IMG/VR virus record: IMGVR_UViG_3300025137_000182
Location: 1-29,380 of that record
Source of the DNA: a virus
DNA: 29,380 nucleotides
Strand: one strand, 5' to 3'
This document shows, one piece after another, positions 416 through 11,763 of this stretch. Made by a program: the position numbers and the translations under genes. The notes beneath the pieces are model-generated. The model saw only the letters and a program-made list of their open reading frames with translations. It was not told the origin of the DNA and ran no database searches. Position 1 is the first letter of the stretch. The number at the start of each line of letters is the position of its first letter.

Positions 416-3400
416 TTATGGTAATGTAAATTGAATTTTAGTTCCTTTTTTCTTTGTTTTAGTTTTTGAATCTTTTTTATTTTCTTTTTGTAATCTTTTA
501 TATTCATCAACTATAGCTTTCTTTTCTTCTGGAAGTATATAAGGATTTATACCTAAACTATATTGGTCCCAACCTGCCATAAGAGATATTTGTTGCCAAG
601 CTTTAGTGTTATCTTCCATAGAAGTTCTTATGTTGTCTACTTTTTTAACTAATCTATCTAAAGGTAAATTAAGAAGAGCAGATGAAACTTGCGCAGTTGC
701 TAATATAGCTGGATTATCTATGTCTAATCCTAAAGCTTTTATTTCGTCCATATTATATTCTACTGTTTTAGCGGCAGATCTTAATTTTTGCATTTTAGAT
801 CTTACAGGAGGAGATATACTAAGCGTTTGCATAGCTACAGAAGTATAATCTGGTCTTTTCTTTTTATTTTGTCTTCTAATTTCCATTAAAATATTTTTAA
901 GCGTAGCTCCAGCTGCTCCATAAACTCCAGAACCTCTTAATAAAGAATCAGCCATACCGTTTAAAATACCAATAGACTTTTCTTTTCTCATGTCTTTATC
1001 TGCCAACTCTTGTTCTTCATCTTCTGGTTCTTCTTCCCATAATAATCCAAATAAAGCTTGTTGAAGCGCGTTAAATATAAAGTTTTGCGCAAGAGCATAA
1101 TAAGCTATTTTAGATATATTAGTTTTAGCGTCTCCTCTACCATTTTTAAGATCTAAATAAGCTTTCTTCATTAGTCTATTATATTGTAATGGAGTATTAG
1201 CAAAAGCTAATATAGTACGTCCTAAAGGCCCAGCTTGCTCTGTGCTAATTCTATCAGGTCTACTTGATTGTTGAGACTCTTCAGTTATTTCCATAAAATC
1301 AAACATAGCTTTTTCTTCAGCTTCAGCTAATTCAAAACCTTGTTGAATATATACATCTGTTCTATTTCTAAAAAACGAAGCACCACCTGTAGCAATAGCA
1401 AAACTATCCATCATTTGCGTAAGTATAAAACCTTTTCTTAACGCATAATTTAAAGCTGCTTTCATTTTATTGCCTTTGCCTTTTACAAAAGCTGCAATTT
1501 CATCAGCGCTTACGTCAAATTTATTACCTGTTCTTCTACTTTTTAAGAAATCAGAATTAAATATTCTAGCAAAATCCGCCCAATATTGAGGTTGATTAGC
1601 AAAAGCTATAGCTGCTTTAACTGGATTGTTATCACTCCAGTTTATATAATTTATCATAGATATACCTTGTAACACAGCACTTCTAGTGTTAATAAACATT
1701 ATAGTAGCAACAGAATTGTTAATCCAGTTCATGAAACCATTAACCATTTTATTTGTTCCAAAAGTTCTGTGTCTTCCAGTTTTCATTCTATAAAGAATAT
1801 CACTTAAAGAATCTAAAAAATCTGAACCATAAATAGCTTGTATTTTATTAGCTGTGTTACCAACTAATTTACCTTGGCCGTTTAATTGACCAAACATTTC
1901 CTCTGAGTTTTTTATAAACTCTGCTAAATAAGCAGCTCTATTTGTAGACGTGCTAGCGCTTTGCAGGTCAGACTCTATTGTTCCAACTTCCCAAGACTCG
2001 TCAGGTGTAACATAACCTTCTTGAGTCAAGCCATAAACGTTGTCACTAAAATCTTTTAACATTTGATCGTTTTCTACAATATCAACTAAAGTATCAATGT
2101 CTTGTTTAGATAAACCTGGGATATCATAACCAGCCTTGTTCCACATGTAAACCCTTGAAGCATCTCCATAAGTAAAACCACTGTAATCTGTTTTTTTATT
2201 TATTTTGTTCTTACCTATAAAAGGGAACATTTCTGGAAATTGTTTCTTTAAAGCGTTGTAATTGTTTTTAGTACGCAAAGAATTTACATTAATAGCGTTT
2301 ATACCTTTGCCAAATGGGTCTAATAAATTAGCTTTAAACCAAGCTAATTGTTCTTCTCCTTTTTTACCTTCGCTTAAAAATTGATATAACAAACCAGTAA
2401 AATCTTCTGCCGTTGGAGGTAAAAACACTTTGTTTTGTTTTATTATAGCGTCTGTTTTTAATGCTCTTTTTTCAGAGAATATCTCATCTGCTGGTATTTT
2501 AGATACATCAAATAATATTTGATTAAAGTTTTGGTTTAAAGTAGCGCTATTTCTTAGCTTAGCTAATTGCGTTACTCCTTTAACGTCATAGGTGTTTAGT
2601 AGATCTTGAACTGCTTTAACGTTTTTCTTAGCATCATCAGCAAAGTAAAAGTCATTATAACCTTCAGTGATCTTTTCTTCGATCCATTTTGCTTTTGCTT
2701 CTGCTTTACCATCTTCTAAGCCAGTTATATTAGATAAAGGTATATTTAAACCTACGCCATCTAAAAATGTTTTAATAGCTTTAGCAGCTTTCTGCGGTCT
2801 TGCTGTCAATACAAATACGTTTTCTGTTCCTTTTTTATCTTGAATAGCTTGAGCAACTTCAAATAAAGGACCTTTTTTACCATCAATAACTTCGTTGAAT
2901 TCTGTAAAATCAAAAACAGCACCTTTGTCTTCTAACGCAGCAGACTTAGCGGCAAACTGAGTAGCGTTTAATTTACCTGTTTTACCGTTAGGCAAAGCAT
3001 ACAACACTTGAGAATTACTTTGTGCTAAAGTATCATCAAAGTCAAATACTCTAATTTTATTAATAGTAGAGCTGTTTCTTAAATTAGGAGTTAAAGGAAC
3101 TTCAAAGCCCATTTCTTGTTTTAACATAGTTTTAAGCTCAGCTAAAGCAACATCATACATGTTTTTGCCAGTTTTTAAATCCCATATTTCTTTAGATTCT
3201 TTTGGAGCTAGTAAAAATCTTAAATTACCTAATGGACTATTTCTTCCTCCTAGTTTATCAAATAAATCTGCTACTCTTTTTTCTATTGCTGATTGCTCAA
3301 AATTGTTTAATATTTTTGATATATCCTGTTTTATTGTTCCTTCGTATATAGATTCAACTATGTTAAATGTAACAGTAGAAGCATCGTCCACATGCTCACC

Positions 3401-6400
3401 TTTTATGCCTGTAAATTTATCATCAATGTTTTGTGGTCCATCTGTAAATTGAAAAGAGCTAAACGCGGCATATGCTCTTGCGGAGAAAACAGCATTTGTA
3501 GTTTTTTGAAAATTAGTAGCCACAAACTTAATTGCGTCTACCTTAGTCATACCATTAGCAACTTTATCATTAACTAAATCGTTAACGCTAAGAGCGTAAG
3601 CTTCAAGAAGTAACTTACCCATTTCTATAGCAGCAATACCATCTTTACCTAATCGTTTTCTTAGTTCTTTAATTTTTTCTTGAGCTGTGATTTCAGAGTT
3701 AGCAATTTCTCTATATATGTTTAAAATATGACCAATTTTAGCTGCTCCTTTGTTTCCTAGTTCTATTTTATTTATATCAACTTTTGCCCAAGCGGCTATA
3801 GTTTCTTCGCTAGCTTTTGTGTCTGCGGCTAAAGCTTCTTTCAAGGCTATATTTCTTTGATTATTTAAATATGCTTTACTTATTTCAACAGCCTCGTTAA
3901 ACTGCTCATCTGTCATGTTTATTTGATCTGCTTTAGACAAAGGTCTACCGTTTGAATCAACAGCAGCTACAGGAGCGCCTACTATACCTCTAGCACTTCC
4001 AAGGTTCATCTCTACCATCTTTTTAAACCAATTACTGTTTTGATTTTCTACATCTAACGAAGATTGTATTTGGTACGCTGGTATAAATAAAGCAATGTTC
4101 TGTTCAAAGTTTTCTAATTGATTTAATAATTCACTTGAATCAACTATATATCTTTTTTTATATATAAGTTGTTCTAATAAATTATCATCATCTAACTTAT
4201 AATCAATTATAATTTTTTTACCTTTATCATTTTTATAGAAATGCTCATCAATTAATTTAGTATCCATATCTGGAAATAAAGCTTTAAGCTTTGTGGTAAA
4301 CCCTTTATTAATCGGTGTAACGTTTAAATTTTCAACACCTACTATTAAGTTTTCTTCAGAAATGTTATTTAAATCATCTACAAATAGACCAAGAGAGTTT
4401 GCTAGCTCAACATAGCTATTATTTATTGTTGCACTATTTCTAAGGTTTGGAGTAGCTCTGTCTAAAGCTTTACCTAAAGCCGCTGCTTGGTTTTCTAAAT
4501 TATCATTATTCATCAAGCTTTGTACACCTGCAAACCTAGCTCTAGCTTCTTTGTTATTTTCTAAAACATCTATAGTAGCATCAAAACCTAATTCTTTACT
4601 TAAAGTTTTAGCTAAAGATTCTTTTCTACTAAGATTTTTAGTAAAGTAATCTACAAACTTATCTGAATTATACTCTTCTTTTTCTGTTATTAAATTACCA
4701 GCTGTTCTACTTTTAACTTTAGGATTTTTATCTGACAAAGCTACATTACCTCTACCTAGGTTTATCATAAACGTTTGGTAGTTGTTATTTATAACCTCTT
4801 TAGACATCTTGTTATATATAGATTCTCCGTTTATTTCTAAAAACGTAGTAAACGACTCTAGGTTTTGAGGACCTCTTTTGCCTTTTTGATGATTAAAAAC
4901 ATCTGTATATATTATATCATATAACATGCTCTCAAAAGCTTGTTGTAATTTCTTTTTAAATTCTATTTGATTTATCTCAGGTAGTTTAGAACCTAAAGCT
5001 GAGATTGTTTTGTCCGCAATGTCTTTGTATATAGGGTTATCTTCTTTAATGTCTAAAAGCTCAAACCAAGTTTTTTCTTGTTCTTCGCTATAAACTTCTT
5101 CGTCTAATAAAGATCCAGTGTTTGACTCATTTAGCTCATTAGTAAATTTTTCTGTAGTAGCTCTACCACTACCTAGCACATTGTTTATTTTATTATTTAC
5201 TTGAGAATTAATCCAAGCAGCTAAATTATCATTTTTAGAAGGATCAAAGTTTCTAATATGTGGAATTAATTCTATTTTTGTTTCAGCTATAAAATCTTCT
5301 TGACTAAAATTTGGTAAAGCTCTTAAAGAAGAAGTTATTTTAGCTCCAATTAAATTATCTAACGTAGGATATATTCTAGCTATAACTCTATCTGATAAAG
5401 CATCCCACTCAGCTTTAGACATGCTTTTATCTGTTAACGTGTCTGGTCCTCCCATTATCCTGTTGGCCATATCATTTATTGTTGCACTATTTCTAATAGT
5501 ACTACCGCTACCACTGCTGTTAGTTCCTTGGCCTGATACTCTTACCTTGTTGTTACCTAAAAATGTTCTATTGTAAGTTTTAAGAAAATTAAAAGCTTGT
5601 TCTCCAGTTCTTATATCAGAAGTATTAATAATTTCATGATCAATACCTAACCAGTATTGAAAATAATCAGTCATACTGTCAGCAAACTTTTGCCAAAACT
5701 TTTTATCTGCTCTTTCCCATGAAATATTGTTGATACCCATTTCATCACTAAAAGACGTAAAAACCTCTTGCGCGTACGCATCGCTATCTTTTCCGTGGGT
5801 TTTTTCTGCGTTTAATAATCTAGTTTTTATTCTACCAATAGTTCCTTTACTTATGTTTCTGTTTTCTACAGGTCCTTCACCTTCTTCTAAATAAGTTAAA
5901 AGCTGCTTACTTAAATCTTTAACTTGTTTCTTAGAAAAAGTTCTATCTAATATAGCGTGAAGTATTTCGTGAGATATTGCTACACTTGCTGATTTACCGC
6001 CTTCTTGAGAACTAAATAAACCACTTACAATAGACTTTTTCTGGTTTTCTAAACTTGAAATAACCCAAGTTTTTTTGCCTTTTTCGTAAGGTGTTATAAA
6101 TGCAGAGTTTTGTCCATTGTTCTCTGTTAAATGATTTATAATAAAAGCATTTGCAGTTGCTTCGTTAGTTATTGAAGGAAAGTTTTTGCTTTCTATTAAA
6201 TATTCTAATAATTTAGGGTCAATACTATTTATATCTATTTTACTATTACTATCTATTTGGTTTACGATAACATCACTATCTATGCCAAACATGTTTAAAA
6301 TATTTGAAGCATTTGTCAAAGCACCTTGTACGTTTCTTATTTGATCATTTATAGTTTGAAAACGATTTTCATTACCTTTTTCTAAAATACCACCTGTATC

Positions 6401-9400
6401 AAGTATACTTTGTATTTCTCTTTCAATGTTTTTTATATTCTTACTAGCTTCAGACAGTGTAGTTTTGTTTCCAAATTTTTTCAAAAAATTTAAAGTATTA
6501 TACAAATCCGCTAATCTGTTTCTTACTTTACCACTTCCTTTGATTTTTCTAGATACTTTATTATCAGTTGCGTTTGTAGCTCCTTCGTTTATTTGATCGA
6601 CTACTAGCTGGTTTTCTAGCATTGCTTCGTAAGTATCAATGTCAATAGTTCCATCGCTCAAAAGTCTAACAGCCATAGCTTTGACTCTATTGCTGTCAAA
6701 ATTAGAATTAACAGCAAAATTTGTTGACGCAGCTAATTCAAGAGCGGTTGCGCCTGCTTTGTTGCGGAAAAAATCATGAGTTATTTGAATTGAAGCTACG
6801 CTAGCAGAAGATCCAAAACCACCTAAAACTTCATTAGTAATATCTGTTTGGAAGTTTCCTTCTCCTGAAACTCCAATAGCTATAGCTTCACCACTTGCTT
6901 CTCCTAAAGCATCAACACCAACAACTTGGGTTGCAACTATAGCTCTTCCTACTTGTGACTTTAAAGCTACGCCTTTAGTTAGCCTTAAAGATGCCGCAGA
7001 AGTTACCAAGGTCATAGCAGCAATAGGAAGTCCTCTTTTTATACCAATACCTTGAGCTCTATCAATAACGTCTTGATCGGTAAGTAATTCTTTTATTTGC
7101 TCTGGATTTTTCCAAAATTGATTTAAATCATAACCTCTTACTTCTGCTTCTTTTTGCATTTCACCCATCATAGCATTACCCATTTCCATGTTAAAAGCAG
7201 TTATAGCCTGCCAACTCATCAAGCTGTTTTTAATTCCAGTAGCTAAACCAGCATATGTAGGTCCTTTTGTCAAGCCTGTTCCTACGCCTATAGCAATAGA
7301 TGGTGCTATAGATTCTGTGGATAAACCTGTAGATAAAAACTGACCCATTGAATCAAGGAATAAGCCAGTCATAATTTCAATAGGATTTTTTGATAAAAAC
7401 TGTGTTTGTTCTTGGAAAGTTGTAGCTTGCATGTATCTATCCATTTGCTCTGTAGTAAGTAGACCTTTGCTATGAGCTTGGTTTACTACTAGTCTTGCTA
7501 CTGCTTCATCAATTGATTCATCGTCGGTAGCTCCATAAATAGTTCTATAAAAATCTATATTATTTTCACCATTATTAATTCCTTTTACAAAACCATTGTA
7601 AAGACCTTCTGTTACGCTTTCTGTATGTGTCCCTACGTAAGTAGTTAAGTCTTTATCGTTGACAGCTACATTTAAACCATAAGCTACAACGCCTAATTTA
7701 TTAAACCCTTCGCCAACAATTCCAATTTTTTCTAAAGTTTCATTAACAACTGACATGTCTTGAACAATTTTATTGTATTCATCTAAAAACACATTAACTG
7801 AATCAGCTTCTTCTTGATCTTTAGCTATAAAACTACCATCAAATATTTTTTCAACAATTTCCTCGCCTAGCTCGGCGATCATATTGTTTTTAATTTCTTC
7901 AAACTGCATGTTTACACGCGTGTTTAAATAATTTAAGTTTTCTTGTGTAGGCTCACTTCCACTACCAGTTCTTAATCTTTCTTCGCTAAGGATTTTGCTA
8001 ACTATTGGTAACGAACTAAATATCTCCGCTTGTTTATCCCAAGCTTCAGTAAGTTTAATTTTATCTTTTTCAACATTTTCTTTCATAAGTTTTTCATACT
8101 TAAGAACTATGTCTTTAGAAGCGTCCACCATTTCAAGATAAACTTCGTTGGTAGTTATTTCTGAAATTCTATCTAATTCAATTTCTGCTTCACCTAAAGT
8201 AGTGTTTTGATAATATTCAGATTGCATGCTTGCGCCATCAACTTCATCGATTCTTGTTTCTGCTCTATAAGCATTTCCTTCTGGAACACTTGGTCTTCTA
8301 GATCCTGGGCCAATATATCTAATTGTTTCTCCTTCTGCGGTAAATCCTTTACTGCTAATAGGATTTCGTTCAAAGTATTCACTAAAAAATGGATTATTAG
8401 TAAGCTTATCAATTTGCTCTTGGTCGTAACCTTCAAAAGTATCATTAATAATTAAACCTTGATCTCTAATAGTAGGAAATCTTATTCTCTCAGCTCCAAT
8501 TATAGAACCTTTAACAAAATCTGAGTTATAACCTTCAGTAGGGTAATAAGCTGCGTATTTTTTATTAAACTCTTCTATATTTTTTTTAATTATATAATCT
8601 GACGTATTTTCATCTTTATAAAAAAGATCATCTGCAGAAGATTGATAAACATTGTCATAAATATCGTTCCATTGAGTTATCATTTCAGTAATTAAAGCAG
8701 TTTTATTTGCTAAACTATCTTTTTTGTCTTCTAAAGCTTTAAACTTATTCCAATCATAACCTTTGTTTGCAAAAACAACCTGTTGTACATAGTCTAAAAA
8801 TCCGCCGCCATCTGGATCTGTATTAAAAGCAGTACCAAAATCATTTATTAAATCTAAACCTGTTTCTGATTTATATTTAATAGCTTCGTTAAATTTTTCC
8901 ATCATTTGGCTTACGTTCCAGTTTTTCATTTCTGGATTGTAAGACGGAAAATCACCTGAGGCGGTATCTAATTCTCCAGTTTCAAAATTATATTTTAAAT
9001 TTGATTCTTGTAAAAATTGTTGATCCCAAGTAAGTTTTGAATTAGGATCAATGCTTGGTGATGGAAATGTAAAAGGCATTAACTCTCTTACCTCTGTATT
9101 ATCACCTTTTATAGAATTAATTAAATCTATATTAGCATTATCTTTTAATGGTAGATTAGATTTTACACGCGCAGGAACAGGTTTTATTTCTGTAGGAGAG
9201 TCCAAAGTAATATCCAGCGACTGTGACTCCGATGATGTCGATGGAATTGGCTTTCCCACGTTAAGATCTATATTTAAATCTTTAACAATTTTTTTCTTTT
9301 TAAAGCTTTCTTTTAATGCTTTAATCTGCTGATCAGTGTCGGTAGCTTTTTCTGATACCAACCTTGCTCTTAAGGCGTTAATTTGTTTTATTTGTCCTAA

Positions 9401-9412
9401 TGTTAAATCCAT
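416..9412 (-). CDS. Giant multidomain virion/ejection protein (2998 aa, polyvalent type)
   Basis: This single frame fills almost a third of the window and is the last complete gene of the structural cluster, where T7-like phages carry internal ejection proteins. Visible blocks in order: hydrophilic N-terminus (1-670); Gly/Ala-rich hydrophobic stretch (about 677-880); helical linker (900-1050); zincin-like peptidase with HEILH at 1148-1152; sigma-70 region-2-like block (1340-1415); unassigned block (1660-2110); HAD phosphatase (2120-2278); and a large C-terminal domain (about 2300-2900) with hydrophobic helices near 2560-2585 and 2768-2790. The tail is Lys-rich. Four R-N-S-(A/S)-T-(I/L)-N copies mark block boundaries at R1307, R1658, R2112 and R2287. 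Domain content resembles the polyvalent proteins described for phages and conjugative elements. The likely role is a capsid-carried protein ejected with the DNA, whose enzymatic parts act on the host early. The start is 9 bases after the upstream stop, with an A-rich leader. Virion location and ejection are inferred from position and architecture. Confidence 0.8.
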   Translation of the reverse strand: MDLTLGQIKQINALRARLVSEKATDTDQQIKALKESFKKKKIVKDLNIDLNVGKPIPSTSSESQSLDITLDSPTEIKPVPARVKSNLPLKDNANIDLINSIKGDNTEVRELMPFTFPSPSIDPNSKLTWDQQFLQESNLKYNFETGELDTASGDFPSYNPEMKNWNVSQMMEKFNEAIKYKSETGLDLINDFGTAFNTDPDGGGFLDYVQQVVFANKGYDWNKFKALEDKKDSLANKTALITEMITQWNDIYDNVYQSSADDLFYKDENTSDYIIKKNIEEFNKKYAAYYPTEGYNSDFVKGSIIGAERIRFPTIRDQGLIINDTFEGYDQEQIDKLTNNPFFSEYFERNPISSKGFTAEGETIRYIGPGSRRPSVPEGNAYRAETRIDEVDGASMQSEYYQNTTLGEAEIELDRISEITTNEVYLEMVDASKDIVLKYEKLMKENVEKDKIKLTEAWDKQAEIFSSLPIVSKILSEERLRTGSGSEPTQENLNYLNTRVNMQFEEIKNNMIAELGEEIVEKIFDGSFIAKDQEEADSVNVFLDEYNKIVQDMSVVNETLEKIGIVGEGFNKLGVVAYGLNVAVNDKDLTTYVGTHTESVTEGLYNGFVKGINNGENNIDFYRTIYGATDDESIDEAVARLVVNQAHSKGLLTTEQMDRYMQATTFQEQTQFLSKNPIEIMTGLFLDSMGQFLSTGLSTESIAPSIAIGVGTGLTKGPTYAGLATGIKNSLMSWQAITAFNMEMGNAMMGEMQKEAEVRGYDLNQFWKNPEQIKELLTDQDVIDRAQGIGIKRGLPIAAMTLVTSAASLRLTKGVALKSQVGRAIVATQVVGVDALGEASGEAIAIGVSGEGNFQTDITNEVLGGFGSSASVASIQITHDFFRNKAGATALELAASTNFAVNSNFDSNRVKAMAVRLLSDGTIDIDTYEAMLENQLVVDQINEGATNATDNKVSRKIKGSGKVRNRLADLYNTLNFLKKFGNKTTLSEASKNIKNIEREIQSILDTGGILEKGNENRFQTINDQIRNVQGALTNASNILNMFGIDSDVIVNQIDSNSKIDINSIDPKLLEYLIESKNFPSITNEATANAFIINHLTENNGQNSAFITPYEKGKKTWVISSLENQKKSIVSGLFSSQEGGKSASVAISHEILHAILDRTFSKKQVKDLSKQLLTYLEEGEGPVENRNISKGTIGRIKTRLLNAEKTHGKDSDAYAQEVFTSFSDEMGINNISWERADKKFWQKFADSMTDYFQYWLGIDHEIINTSDIRTGEQAFNFLKTYNRTFLGNNKVRVSGQGTNSSGSGSTIRNSATINDMANRIMGGPDTLTDKSMSKAEWDALSDRVIARIYPTLDNLIGAKITSSLRALPNFSQEDFIAETKIELIPHIRNFDPSKNDNLAAWINSQVNNKINNVLGSGRATTEKFTNELNESNTGSLLDEEVYSEEQEKTWFELLDIKEDNPIYKDIADKTISALGSKLPEINQIEFKKKLQQAFESMLYDIIYTDVFNHQKGKRGPQNLESFTTFLEINGESIYNKMSKEVINNNYQTFMINLGRGNVALSDKNPKVKSRTAGNLITEKEEYNSDKFVDYFTKNLSRKESLAKTLSKELGFDATIDVLENNKEARARFAGVQSLMNNDNLENQAAALGKALDRATPNLRNSATINNSYVELANSLGLFVDDLNNISEENLIVGVENLNVTPINKGFTTKLKALFPDMDTKLIDEHFYKNDKGKKIIIDYKLDDDNLLEQLIYKKRYIVDSSELLNQLENFEQNIALFIPAYQIQSSLDVENQNSNWFKKMVEMNLGSARGIVGAPVAAVDSNGRPLSKADQINMTDEQFNEAVEISKAYLNNQRNIALKEALAADTKASEETIAAWAKVDINKIELGNKGAAKIGHILNIYREIANSEITAQEKIKELRKRLGKDGIAAIEMGKLLLEAYALSVNDLVNDKVANGMTKVDAIKFVATNFQKTTNAVFSARAYAAFSSFQFTDGPQNIDDKFTGIKGEHVDDASTVTFNIVESIYEGTIKQDISKILNNFEQSAIEKRVADLFDKLGGRNSPLGNLRFLLAPKESKEIWDLKTGKNMYDVALAELKTMLKQEMGFEVPLTPNLRNSSTINKIRVFDFDDTLAQSNSQVLYALPNGKTGKLNATQFAAKSAALEDKGAVFDFTEFNEVIDGKKGPLFEVAQAIQDKKGTENVFVLTARPQKAAKAIKTFLDGVGLNIPLSNITGLEDGKAEAKAKWIEEKITEGYNDFYFADDAKKNVKAVQDLLNTYDVKGVTQLAKLRNSATLNQNFNQILFDVSKIPADEIFSEKRALKTDAIIKQNKVFLPPTAEDFTGLLYQFLSEGKKGEEQLAWFKANLLDPFGKGINAINVNSLRTKNNYNALKKQFPEMFPFIGKNKINKKTDYSGFTYGDASRVYMWNKAGYDIPGLSKQDIDTLVDIVENDQMLKDFSDNVYGLTQEGYVTPDESWEVGTIESDLQSASTSTNRAAYLAEFIKNSEEMFGQLNGQGKLVGNTANKIQAIYGSDFLDSLSDILYRMKTGRHRTFGTNKMVNGFMNWINNSVATIMFINTRSAVLQGISMINYINWSDNNPVKAAIAFANQPQYWADFARIFNSDFLKSRRTGNKFDVSADEIAAFVKGKGNKMKAALNYALRKGFILTQMMDSFAIATGGASFFRNRTDVYIQQGFELAEAEEKAMFDFMEITEESQQSSRPDRISTEQAGPLGRTILAFANTPLQYNRLMKKAYLDLKNGRGDAKTNISKIAYYALAQNFIFNALQQALFGLLWEEEPEDEEQELADKDMRKEKSIGILNGMADSLLRGSGVYGAAGATLKNILMEIRRQNKKKRPDYTSVAMQTLSISPPVRSKMQKLRSAAKTVEYNMDEIKALGLDIDNPAILATAQVSSALLNLPLDRLVKKVDNIRTSMEDNTKAWQQISLMAGWDQYSLGINPYILPEEKKAIVDEYKRLQKENKKDSKTKTKKKGTKIQFTLP
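713..2515 (-). other. C-terminal domain of the giant protein shared with marine phage virion proteins
   Basis: Residues about 2300-2900 hold a long, mostly helical domain. Landmarks are a segment around F-T-Y-G-D-A-S-R-V-Y-M-W, then D-I-P-G-L-S-K, then R-M-K-T-G-R, then I-M-F-I-N-T-R-S-A-V-L-Q. I recognise this order from memory as a recurring C-terminal domain of very large virion proteins in marine phages; no search was run. Two hydrophobic helices (about 2560-2585 and 2768-2790) suggest membrane contact, and an acidic patch (WEEEPEDEEQE) follows the second. No catalytic residues are evident. Confidence 0.5.
2534..2554 (-). repeat. Junction heptapeptide copy 4 (R2287-N2293, RNSATLN)
   Basis: This is the fourth copy of the heptapeptide. 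It lies between the end of the HAD domain and the start of the large C-terminal domain. At DNA level it differs from copies 1 and 2 at several synonymous positions, so the peptide is conserved more than the DNA. A leucine precedes the arginine, as in copies 2 and 3. Confidence 0.8.
2579..3055 (-). other. HAD-superfamily phosphatase domain inside the giant protein
   Basis: Residues about 2120-2278 carry the four HAD motifs in correct order. Motif I is DFDDTL, with nucleophile D2124 and general acid D2126. Motif II is V-L-T-A-R-P with T2203. The motif III lysine is probably in GKAEAKAKW. Motif IV is FADDAKKN with D2259 and D2260. The domain is bounded exactly by two junction heptapeptides at R2112 and R2287, about 175 residues apart, which fits a free-standing single-domain HAD. 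All catalytic positions are present, so activity is plausible. The insert between motifs I and II (about 75 residues) resembles a C1-type cap. Substrate is unknown; a nucleotide or a 5'/3' nucleic-acid end phosphate would fit phage biology, but that is inference. Confidence 0.8.
3059..3079 (-). repeat. Junction heptapeptide copy 3 (R2112-N2118, RNSSTIN)
   Basis: This is the third copy of the heptapeptide, with Ser replacing Ala at position 4. It stands directly before the HAD domain, whose first beta-strand (K-I-R-V-F-D-F-D) starts right after it. It is preceded by P-N-L, as in copy 2 (P-N-L), so the conserved unit here is about ten residues. Confidence 0.8.
4421..4441 (-). repeat. Junction heptapeptide copy 2 (R1658-N1664, RNSATIN)
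   Basis: This is the second copy of the heptapeptide, separating the block after the sigma-like segment from the unassigned block 1660-2110. Its DNA is identical to copy 1 over 23 bases (4421-4443 against 5474-5496), whereas copies 3 and 4 use partly different codons. Confidence 0.8.
5168..5395 (-). other. Sigma-70 region-2-like helical block inside the giant protein
   Basis: Residues about 1340-1415 follow the pattern of sigma-70 region 2: a helix ending in L-I-G, then N-F-S-Q-E-D-F-I-A-E-T, then the characteristic F-D-P-S-K-N-D-N followed by L-A-A-W-I-N and N-K-I-N-N-V-L. In sigma factors the same order is EDL-x-QE, then FDPSxG, then a core-binding and -10-recognition helix. Downstream there is a Glu/Asp-rich stretch (S-L-L-D-E-E), also common after region 2. 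No region 4 helix-turn-helix is obvious. The match is by eye to a family pattern and needs profile confirmation. If real, it could bind host RNA polymerase after ejection (inference). Confidence 0.4.
5474..5494 (-). repeat. Junction heptapeptide copy 1 (R1307-N1313, RNSATIN)
   Basis: This is the first copy of the heptapeptide, located just after the peptidase region and a Ser/Gly-rich flexible stretch (S-S-G-S-G-S-T) and just before the sigma-like block. In this copy isoleucine, not leucine, precedes the arginine. The 23-base block 5474-5496 is identical to the DNA of copy 2. Confidence 0.8.
5720..6262 (-). other. Zincin-like metallopeptidase domain inside the giant protein
   Basis: Residues about 1050-1231. 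The zinc-binding motif HEILH occupies 1148-1152 in the context S-H-E-I-L-H-A-I-L-D, with H1148 and H1152 as ligands and E1149 as catalytic base. A glutamate in A-Q-E-V-F (E1216), 64 residues further, is a plausible third ligand, as in gluzincins. Metallopeptidase domains of this sort are known from phage polyvalent proteins. It could process this same polyprotein, another virion protein or a host target; the sequence does not say which. Confidence 0.65.
6773..7384 (-). other. Hydrophobic Gly/Ala-rich segment of the giant protein
   Basis: Residues about 677-880 contain several hydrophobic, small-residue stretches: M-T-G-L-F-L, A-P-S-I-A-I-G-V-G-T-G, L-P-I-A-A-M-T-L-V-T-S-A-A, and V-L-G-G-F-G-S-S-A-S-V-A-S. 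These alternate with amphipathic helices. The rest of the N-terminal third is hydrophilic. Such segments are typical of ejected virion proteins that must insert into the cell envelope to form a DNA conduit (T7 gp16 is the model). The conduit role is inference; the hydrophobic character is seen directly. Confidence 0.5.
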
Positions 9413-11073: not shown

Positions 11074-11763
11074 TTATAATAAACCACCTAAGCCTTGAAG
11101 TAATCCACCAGCTGCGTTCATAGTGTCTTGAGCAGCTCCTGCTTGATTATTTTGTGCGTTATTTAATTGTCCTAAAGCTATACTCATATCGGTATTAGCT
11201 CTATTTTCTACTAACTCTATTTCAAAAGCATTTCCTGCAGCCTCAGCTTGTTGCATTCTTTGGCCTTCGCCTATATTTATAGCTTGTATTCTTGATTTTT
11301 CTTGAGTTTTAGCTACTTGTAATTGTTGATCACCTTGTGCTCTTAGTTTTTGGTTTTGAGCTTCTTGAACCTCTAGACTAGCTGAAACACCTTTTTTACT
11401 TCTTAATGCTGCTTGTGCTAAAGCAGTTGCCCCACCAGCACTTGCGCCACTAGATCTTAAAGCATCTAGCGTATTAGCTAAAGCAATATCGGCTTCTTCG
11501 GCTTGCATCTCTGCTGCTTGTGTTGCTACTCCTAAGCTTTCAAATGGATTAGACATCATGTCAGATAAATCAGTTGCCATGCCTGATAGATTAGATGTAA
11601 CTCCTTCGTAAGGATTTGTTACTGCTGACCTAGAGGCTCTAGCTGAGTCTACAGCCGCTTGTGCTATTCTTTGTTGTTCTTCAAAAGCTTTTCTTCTTTT
11701 ATTAGAACCTATTAATTTCATTCCAGTAGAGGCGAGGCTCATTAATGCTCCAAATGGTGCCAT
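11074..11763 (-). CDS. Small Ala/Gln-rich internal virion protein (gp14-like)
   Basis: 229 residues. The N-terminus has a short hydrophobic helix (residues 4-19, F-G-A-L-M-S-L-A-S-T-G-M-K-L-I-G), followed by a basic patch (SNKRRK). A long low-complexity helical body rich in Ala, Gln, Glu and Ser follows (about residues 25-205). The C-terminus is Gly/Leu-rich (GGLLQGLGGLL). This composition is what internal or ejection proteins of the T7 gp14 type look like, and the gene sits just ahead of two larger candidates for ejection proteins. It starts 7 bases after the upstream stop. No sequence homologue can be named; the role rests on composition and position. Confidence 0.55.
   Translation of the reverse strand: MAPFGALMSLASTGMKLIGSNKRRKAFEEQQRIAQAAVDSARASRSAVTNPYEGVTSNLSGMATDLSDMMSNPFESLGVATQAAEMQAEEADIALANTLDALRSSGASAGGATALAQAALRSKKGVSASLEVQEAQNQKLRAQGDQQLQVAKTQEKSRIQAINIGEGQRMQQAEAAGNAFEIELVENRANTDMSIALGQLNNAQNNQAGAAQDTMNAAGGLLQGLGGLL

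Follow-up and report, generated by a model that had tools for sequence, protein, structure and literature searches.

Very large phage proteins that combine zincin-like, enzymatic and nucleic-acid-related domains in one polypeptide have been described as polyvalent proteins. In a 2017 paper on them, processing by the embedded zincin-like peptidase was proposed, an analogy with polyproteins was drawn, and the DdrB protein of phage P1 was reported to be cleaved before packaging (PMC5512222). Whether the giant polyvalent proteins of phages are one chain or polyproteins is a question that was posed in that year. Here we analysed P0001, a giant polyvalent-type protein of 2998 residues encoded on the minus strand (positions 416-9412) of the virus record IMGVR_UViG_3300025137_000182, whose whole length of 29,380 bases is called the window in what follows. 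This work concerns the four copies of the short peptide R-N-S-[AS]-T-[IL]-N in this protein, called tags below. Residue numbers refer to the open reading frame (ORF) of P0001, which has a full-length homologue of 3076 residues, 52% identical (L002). A term search of the main text of the 2017 paper gave no interdomain tag, whereas the giant protein described here has tags, and these do not clearly track its zincin-like domain. In the open-licence papers searched, we found no description of junction tags in polyvalent proteins, or of different spellings (dialects) of such tags.

Other described systems share some features with this locus. The gp50 protein of N4-like phages is a single-chain ejection protein of about 3500 residues, with loosely connected domains, one of them an HExxH domain (PMC12633501); it is reported as one full-length enzyme, whereas no T7-like RNA polymerase module is present among the Pfam, PHROGs and NCBIfam matches of P0001. 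Prohead proteases are known to cleave head and ejection proteins at motifs, and in SPN3US gp245, as in the case considered here, a short linear motif is involved, which lies at the cleavage sites of virion-internal proteins (PMC10052503). The SPN3US protease is a maturation enzyme of its own with several head proteins as substrates, whereas the tag studied here occurs in the giant protein alone and lies at internal domain boundaries. The Crassvirales have a crAss-type muzzle, also encoded in the window, and giant virion cargo proteins, to which P0001 may be likened (PMC10172136). Phage phicrAss001, compared with the giant protein by description only, differs in having separate cargo and RNA-polymerase-associated proteins (gp45, gp46, gp47, gp49 and gp50).

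Four heptapeptides at the domain junctions of P0001

The tags are RNSATIN at R1307 (tag 1 or J_A, window 5474-5494), RNSATIN at R1658 (tag 2 or J_B, 4421-4441), RNSSTIN at R2112 (tag 3 or J_C, 3059-3079) and RNSATLN at R2287 (tag 4 or J_D, 2534-2554), all on the minus strand, where they start at 5494, 4441, 3079 and 2554, respectively. Tags 2 and 3 have a longer string in common, TPNLRNS, as they lie in TPNLRNSATIN and TPNLRNSSTIN. These are the four copies listed by the first-pass annotation of the window, and the pattern RNS.T.N was not found elsewhere in the window when all six frames were searched. A chance repeat is ruled out by the four copies observed, as compared to 7e-5 expected from composition. 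Among the exact five-residue repeats of the protein, only RNSAT, which is part of the motif, occurs more than twice. When 7-mer repeats were searched de novo, the motif came out as the top internal repeat family, with four members as compared to a maximum of three in shuffled sequences.

The copies had also been said to flank the HAD domain exactly and, in one case, to precede the sigma-like block, and both placements hold. Tag 1 lies between the zincin-like domain (HEILH at 1148) and the sigma-70 region-2-like block (about residues 1365-1411). Tag 3 abuts the first strand of the HAD domain, its end directly adjoining KIRVFDFDDTLA, and tag 4 comes after the last HAD strand, between this domain and the C-terminal block. 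AlphaFold models of parts of the giant protein were of moderate confidence, with a mean predicted local distance difference test score (pLDDT) of 61 and 66. In these models, the pLDDT drops below 50 at residues 471-475, a dip that tag 3 (model residues 472-478) overlaps and that precedes the first HAD strand at 479-484. It drops below 50 again at 645-649, between the last HAD strand (638-643) and the next domain, where tag 4 (647-653) overlaps the dip. Tags 3 and 4 are thus in narrow low-confidence gaps beside the HAD domain, and a low-confidence linker (model residues 224-253) has tag 1 at its end; these sites may lie in exposed linkers between folded domains. Tag 2 is uninformative since it falls in a broadly low-confidence region (model residues 569-633). 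This placement in linker-like gaps of the models is a support to the junction role of the tags, not a proof.

Tag dialects in related giant proteins

A profile of the HAD module matched hundreds of viral contigs, and about 100 non-redundant giant proteins with this module are tagged at matching places. A giant has up to four such junctions, namely one following the zincin, one ahead of the module that lies upstream of HAD, and one on either side of HAD, and the distances from tag to HAD are similar across relatives. The blocks of homology to the window protein also switch near the tags: HAD and C-terminal block together (residues 2112-2955) are matched in about 52 of 55 giants, and in two relatives the upstream blocks stop at tag 2 (at 1652 in L027 and at 1660 in L054). 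The spelling of the tag changes from one protein to another; L046 (ESKLE) and L049 (ASKR), for example, differ in dialect on a near-identical backbone. At the four places L002, the nearest homologue, has LRDSEIN, FRDSEVL, LRNSETI and LRNSETL, while the usual spelling in the giants is K-[FY]-S, and ASKR, ESKLE and LAQKK are also used. At the post-HAD junction we observed A-K-[FY]-S-K, AK-x-KFS, AKASKR, AKESKLE, ALAQKKL and others, after which a conserved FNxIIE, or a string like it, comes in most cases. Conservation of the heptapeptide itself across relatives is refuted by spellings such as these and KFSK; what is kept in the homologues is its position at domain boundaries and the likeness among the copies of one protein. 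No clear junction tag was seen in the giant proteins of elemovirus and MW202828, or in the Panino proteins examined. A differing arrangement was observed in L037 and L068 and, judging by HAD position, in L072 and L074, where HAD is at about residue 900 of a 2500-residue protein; in L037 and L068, two HExxH motifs lie downstream and no tag is recognisable after HAD.

The likeness of the tags within one protein was quantified by scoring, for each giant, 13 residues at the post-HAD junction against other places in the same protein and in other proteins, the result being given as a self percentile. The giants are mutually related, and the p-values reported here are to be taken as indicative, with thinning covering part of the kinship. 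The likeness was confined to the junction: two offsets include the tag, with mean self percentiles of 0.745 and 0.723, as compared to 0.44-0.58 at 26 other offsets. When J_D was compared with the stretch before HAD (J_C), the value was 0.752 against other proteins (p = 2e-7) and 0.890 against shuffles of that stretch (p = 4.6e-9), while three control stretches gave 0.47-0.56. The self percentile of the stretch after the zincin was 0.634 (p = 0.011). The likeness persisted when the window protein and L002 were left out, in 13 thinned proteins with distant C-terminal blocks and in dialects other than KFS. In a set of 57 held-out giants, the value was 0.809 (p = 9e-10) with shuffles as the reference and 0.721 (p = 1.6e-7) with other proteins as the reference; one HAD control stretch of the same set gave 0.579 against shuffles (p = 0.03), yet 0.487 against other proteins. 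The other ORFs of each locus showed no likeness to the tag (0.46-0.56), and therefore the tag belongs to the giant protein. Pooled tripeptide enrichment over the giants was uninformative, because homology dominates it.

These comparisons show that the encoded spelling of the tag varies from phage to phage but is alike within one protein. Judged by sequence, these giants share one feature with polyproteins that have protease recognition sites, in that a recurrent motif lies at their domain boundaries and is coherent within each of them. One shared reader would be the simplest cause of this within-protein likeness. The corresponding junctions in about 100 relatives, together with the linker-like gaps between predicted domains, uphold the view that the peptide is a selected junction element.

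Proposed cleavage at the tags and its alternatives

The explanation that we favour, tentatively and at somewhat less than an even chance, is that a single factor recognises all four heptapeptides as copies of one junction tag, and that this factor is most likely a protease by which the giant protein is cut. We take the tags as cut sites because a short peptide is found once per domain boundary, in positions resembling linkers, and its spellings in one protein drift jointly. Such a reader would keep the copies alike within each protein. Cleavage at the four tags, during assembly or after ejection, would give about five parts, which for P0001 are predicted to be a zincin-bearing N-terminal product of 145 kDa, a sigma-like product of 40 kDa, the module with no assigned function (51 kDa), the HAD domain (19 kDa) and the C-terminal block (80 kDa). 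Ejection of the giant protein we infer from the position of its gene by the muzzle and from analogy with the giant ejection proteins of phages, a class already known. A more far-reaching proposal, which is possible but less probable, is that a widespread family of uncultured, crAss-like phages makes a true polyprotein, a virion or ejection protein of 250-400 kDa cut at four junctions by one protease other than the in-chain zincin, and that the tag code drifts between phages, all tags changing along with this reader. Since the junction tags predict the cut sites exactly, along with the sizes of the fragments, the question of one chain or polyprotein can be tested by mass spectrometry. If cleavage does occur, the coevolution of protease and substrate could be read from the dialects, and the tags would delimit modules (sigma-like, HAD and C-terminal) that can be expressed separately.

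Several points weigh against cleavage. The cut is deduced from the peptide pattern, and the models behind the placement of the tags are only moderately confident (mean pLDDT 61 and 66). J_C or J_A is hard to recognise in some relatives. The coevolution expected with an in-chain protease is weak, and tags remain where the zincin motif is degenerate (EExxH), as detailed below. Moreover, the virion RNA polymerase of phage N4, a giant ejection protein with a zincin-like domain, was reported in the 2017 paper to be packaged unprocessed (PMC5512222), and a structure paper of 2025 treats it as a 383 kDa single-chain enzyme (PMC12633501).

One candidate protease is the zincin-like domain of the same chain, which the first-pass annotation had named as candidate processing enzyme; it would cut its own protein in cis or in trans, and the spelling of the tag would coevolve with its pocket. 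Zincin processing was already proposed for such proteins in the 2017 paper (PMC5512222), and tag 1 lies about 155 residues past HEILH. In the 125 giants whose part preceding HAD is 900 residues or longer, the patterns used gave HExxH upstream of HAD in 115, EExxH in six and neither in four. However, tag similarity follows zincin similarity to a small extent only. The partial correlation was 0.10 (p = 0.107) in a first set of 39 giants; in 90 giants, given the other blocks, it reached 0.106 (p = 0.033) when J_D was compared with J_D, and the cross measure of J_D with J_C showed no significant correlation (0.048, p = 0.14). The C-terminal block was tracked more strongly, with r = 0.25 (p = 0.003) and 0.15 (p = 0.007) on the two measures, respectively. 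The ASKR/ASKK dialect is shared by 11 giants whose zincins are very different (normalised similarity 0.06-0.94 on a 0-1 scale, most pairs below 0.4). In addition, the six EExxH giants (L008, at about residue 1020, L033, L039, L043, L056 and L065) carry [LIVM]EE[LIVM]FH for HExxH in an otherwise homologous domain, which is possibly inactive or has an altered metal site. These giants keep KFSK or ASKG tags, and no second zincin homologue was found in their records, two of which are 64-66 kb long. Because coevolution is weak and tags occur with a degenerate zincin, no candidate protease is confirmed, and the in-chain zincin would be a possible but poorly supported reader, which we regard as unlikely. 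An outside protease, either of the host or a capsid maturation (prohead) protease, is a specific version of the cleavage explanation and would explain why the tags fail to follow the zincin; in giant phages, prohead proteases do cut both head and ejection proteins at short motifs, as in SPN3US gp245 (PMC10052503). On the other hand, neither the dialect nor a capsid-protease motif common to head proteins was found in the neighbouring ORFs, a comparison that fully covers head genes, including the portal, in the window only, as many relatives' loci do not extend to them; moreover, many dialects within one phage group would be unexpected for a host protease unless the hosts differ. We consider this version a little less likely than the in-chain zincin.

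The main alternative to cleavage is docking to one partner, by which the tags would be motifs that fit one pocket of a scaffold, a chaperone, a packaging or ejection component or the C-terminal block of the protein itself. Docking accounts for the within-protein likeness equally well, and the C-terminal block, the most conserved part of the family, is the one best tracked by tag similarity. This correlation leaves the reader unnamed, however, as it may merely reflect phage phylogeny (vertical descent) or the adjacency of tag 4, and docking has no need for one tag per domain boundary; we hold it to be rather improbable, although ahead of the in-chain zincin. The tags might also be remnants of a DNA-level linker for module exchange, since recombination at short repeats would homogenise the copies too and the homology blocks do change at the tags. 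Tags 1 and 2 are identical over 23 nucleotides (window 5474-5496 and 4421-4443), ending at the peptide boundary (P = 0.0044 by codon usage, for that pair alone and uncorrected for six pairs), and possibly derive from a recent short DNA copy. In contrast, codon agreement is at chance level in every pair with copy 3 or 4, and family-wide 82 of 133 identical residues have identical codons, with 71.5 expected, which is too few for DNA copying as the main cause. With codons agreeing at close to the chance rate across the family, it is mainly the peptide sequence that is kept alike. The earlier argument that differing codons point to selection on the peptide is thus qualified by tags 1 and 2, while the standard exchange linker proposed beside it is disfavoured, with tags 1 and 2 as the exception, and is very unlikely.

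Domains, gene neighbourhood and phage group

P0001 is of polyvalent type in that it combines in one polypeptide several distinct effector-type domains, namely the HExxH domain, the sigma-like segment, the HAD domain and the C-terminal block. The zincin-like metallopeptidase domain spans residues ~1090-1290 (window 5543-6145, minus strand as for all domains of the protein), with HEILH at 1148-1152 (5957-5971). The HExxH motif is followed downstream by a conserved EE, aligned in most relatives, and this combination is consistent with a zincin; no zincin match was obtained in Pfam or by Foldseek, and the predicted model is of low overall confidence. The sigma-70 region-2-like domain (residues ~1365-1411, window 5180-5320) is suggested by weak matches to NCBIfam TIGR02937 (E = 7.4e-4, under the curated cut-off) and Pfam Sigma70_r2 (E = 0.014), and by a Foldseek match to the SigE N-terminal domain (template modelling score 0.68-0.71 by target length, 21-24% identity, E about 2-3). 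A block between the tags of the distant relative L028 matches SigBFG (E = 0.001). A domain of this type was weakly detected in two distant relatives. If delivered, the sigma-like domain could redirect the host RNA polymerase.

Between tags 2 and 3 there is a module with no assigned function (residues 1665-2111, window 3080-4420), which has a low-identity counterpart in relatives. The HAD-superfamily domain (residues 2119-2284, window 2561-3058) contains the motif DFDDT and matches phrog_415 (E = 5.7e-9, spanning 2111-2307); Foldseek on the model containing it gave no significant match (best E = 0.03). In the giant protein of L002, at residues ~2060-2220, the HAD domain has an insert of about 165 residues between the first motif and the remainder. 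The C-terminal block (residues 2294-2998, window 419-2533) has a BLAST homologue in about 51-53 of 55 giants.

The window also encodes a terminase (phrog_6681), a portal (phrog_6547) and further structural proteins, as found by a PHROGs search, and a crAss-type muzzle protein (PF25729, above the Pfam cut-off), also present in the records of L002, L043, L046 and L073. The portal has relatives, none of them reaching 60% identity, in phages of Flavobacterium, Cellulophaga, Tenacibaculum and Maribacter. With the muzzle, a related portal and the terminase among its predicted proteins, this phage is crAss-like (Crassvirales). A tblastn search of the whole giant protein or its HAD module against annotated phages gave no cultured relative, the sole match being MW202828 (26%), an uncultured spring metagenome record.

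The giant protein gene is the last of a run that comprises the genes of the muzzle, a 229-residue protein, a 545-residue protein and P0001. In gene order alone, this arrangement of muzzle, small, middle and giant genes resembles that of ejection-protein operons. The 229-residue protein, whose gene adjoins that of the muzzle (window 11074-11763, minus strand), had no match in PHROGs or PDB, and it is conserved in 52 related loci with up to 72% identity. Among the contigs with the HAD module, L087-L092 are binned in metagenome-assembled genomes labelled Woesearchaeota, Ilumatobacteraceae, Aliivibrio and Bacteroidetes; these are probably phage contigs assigned to the wrong organism in binning.

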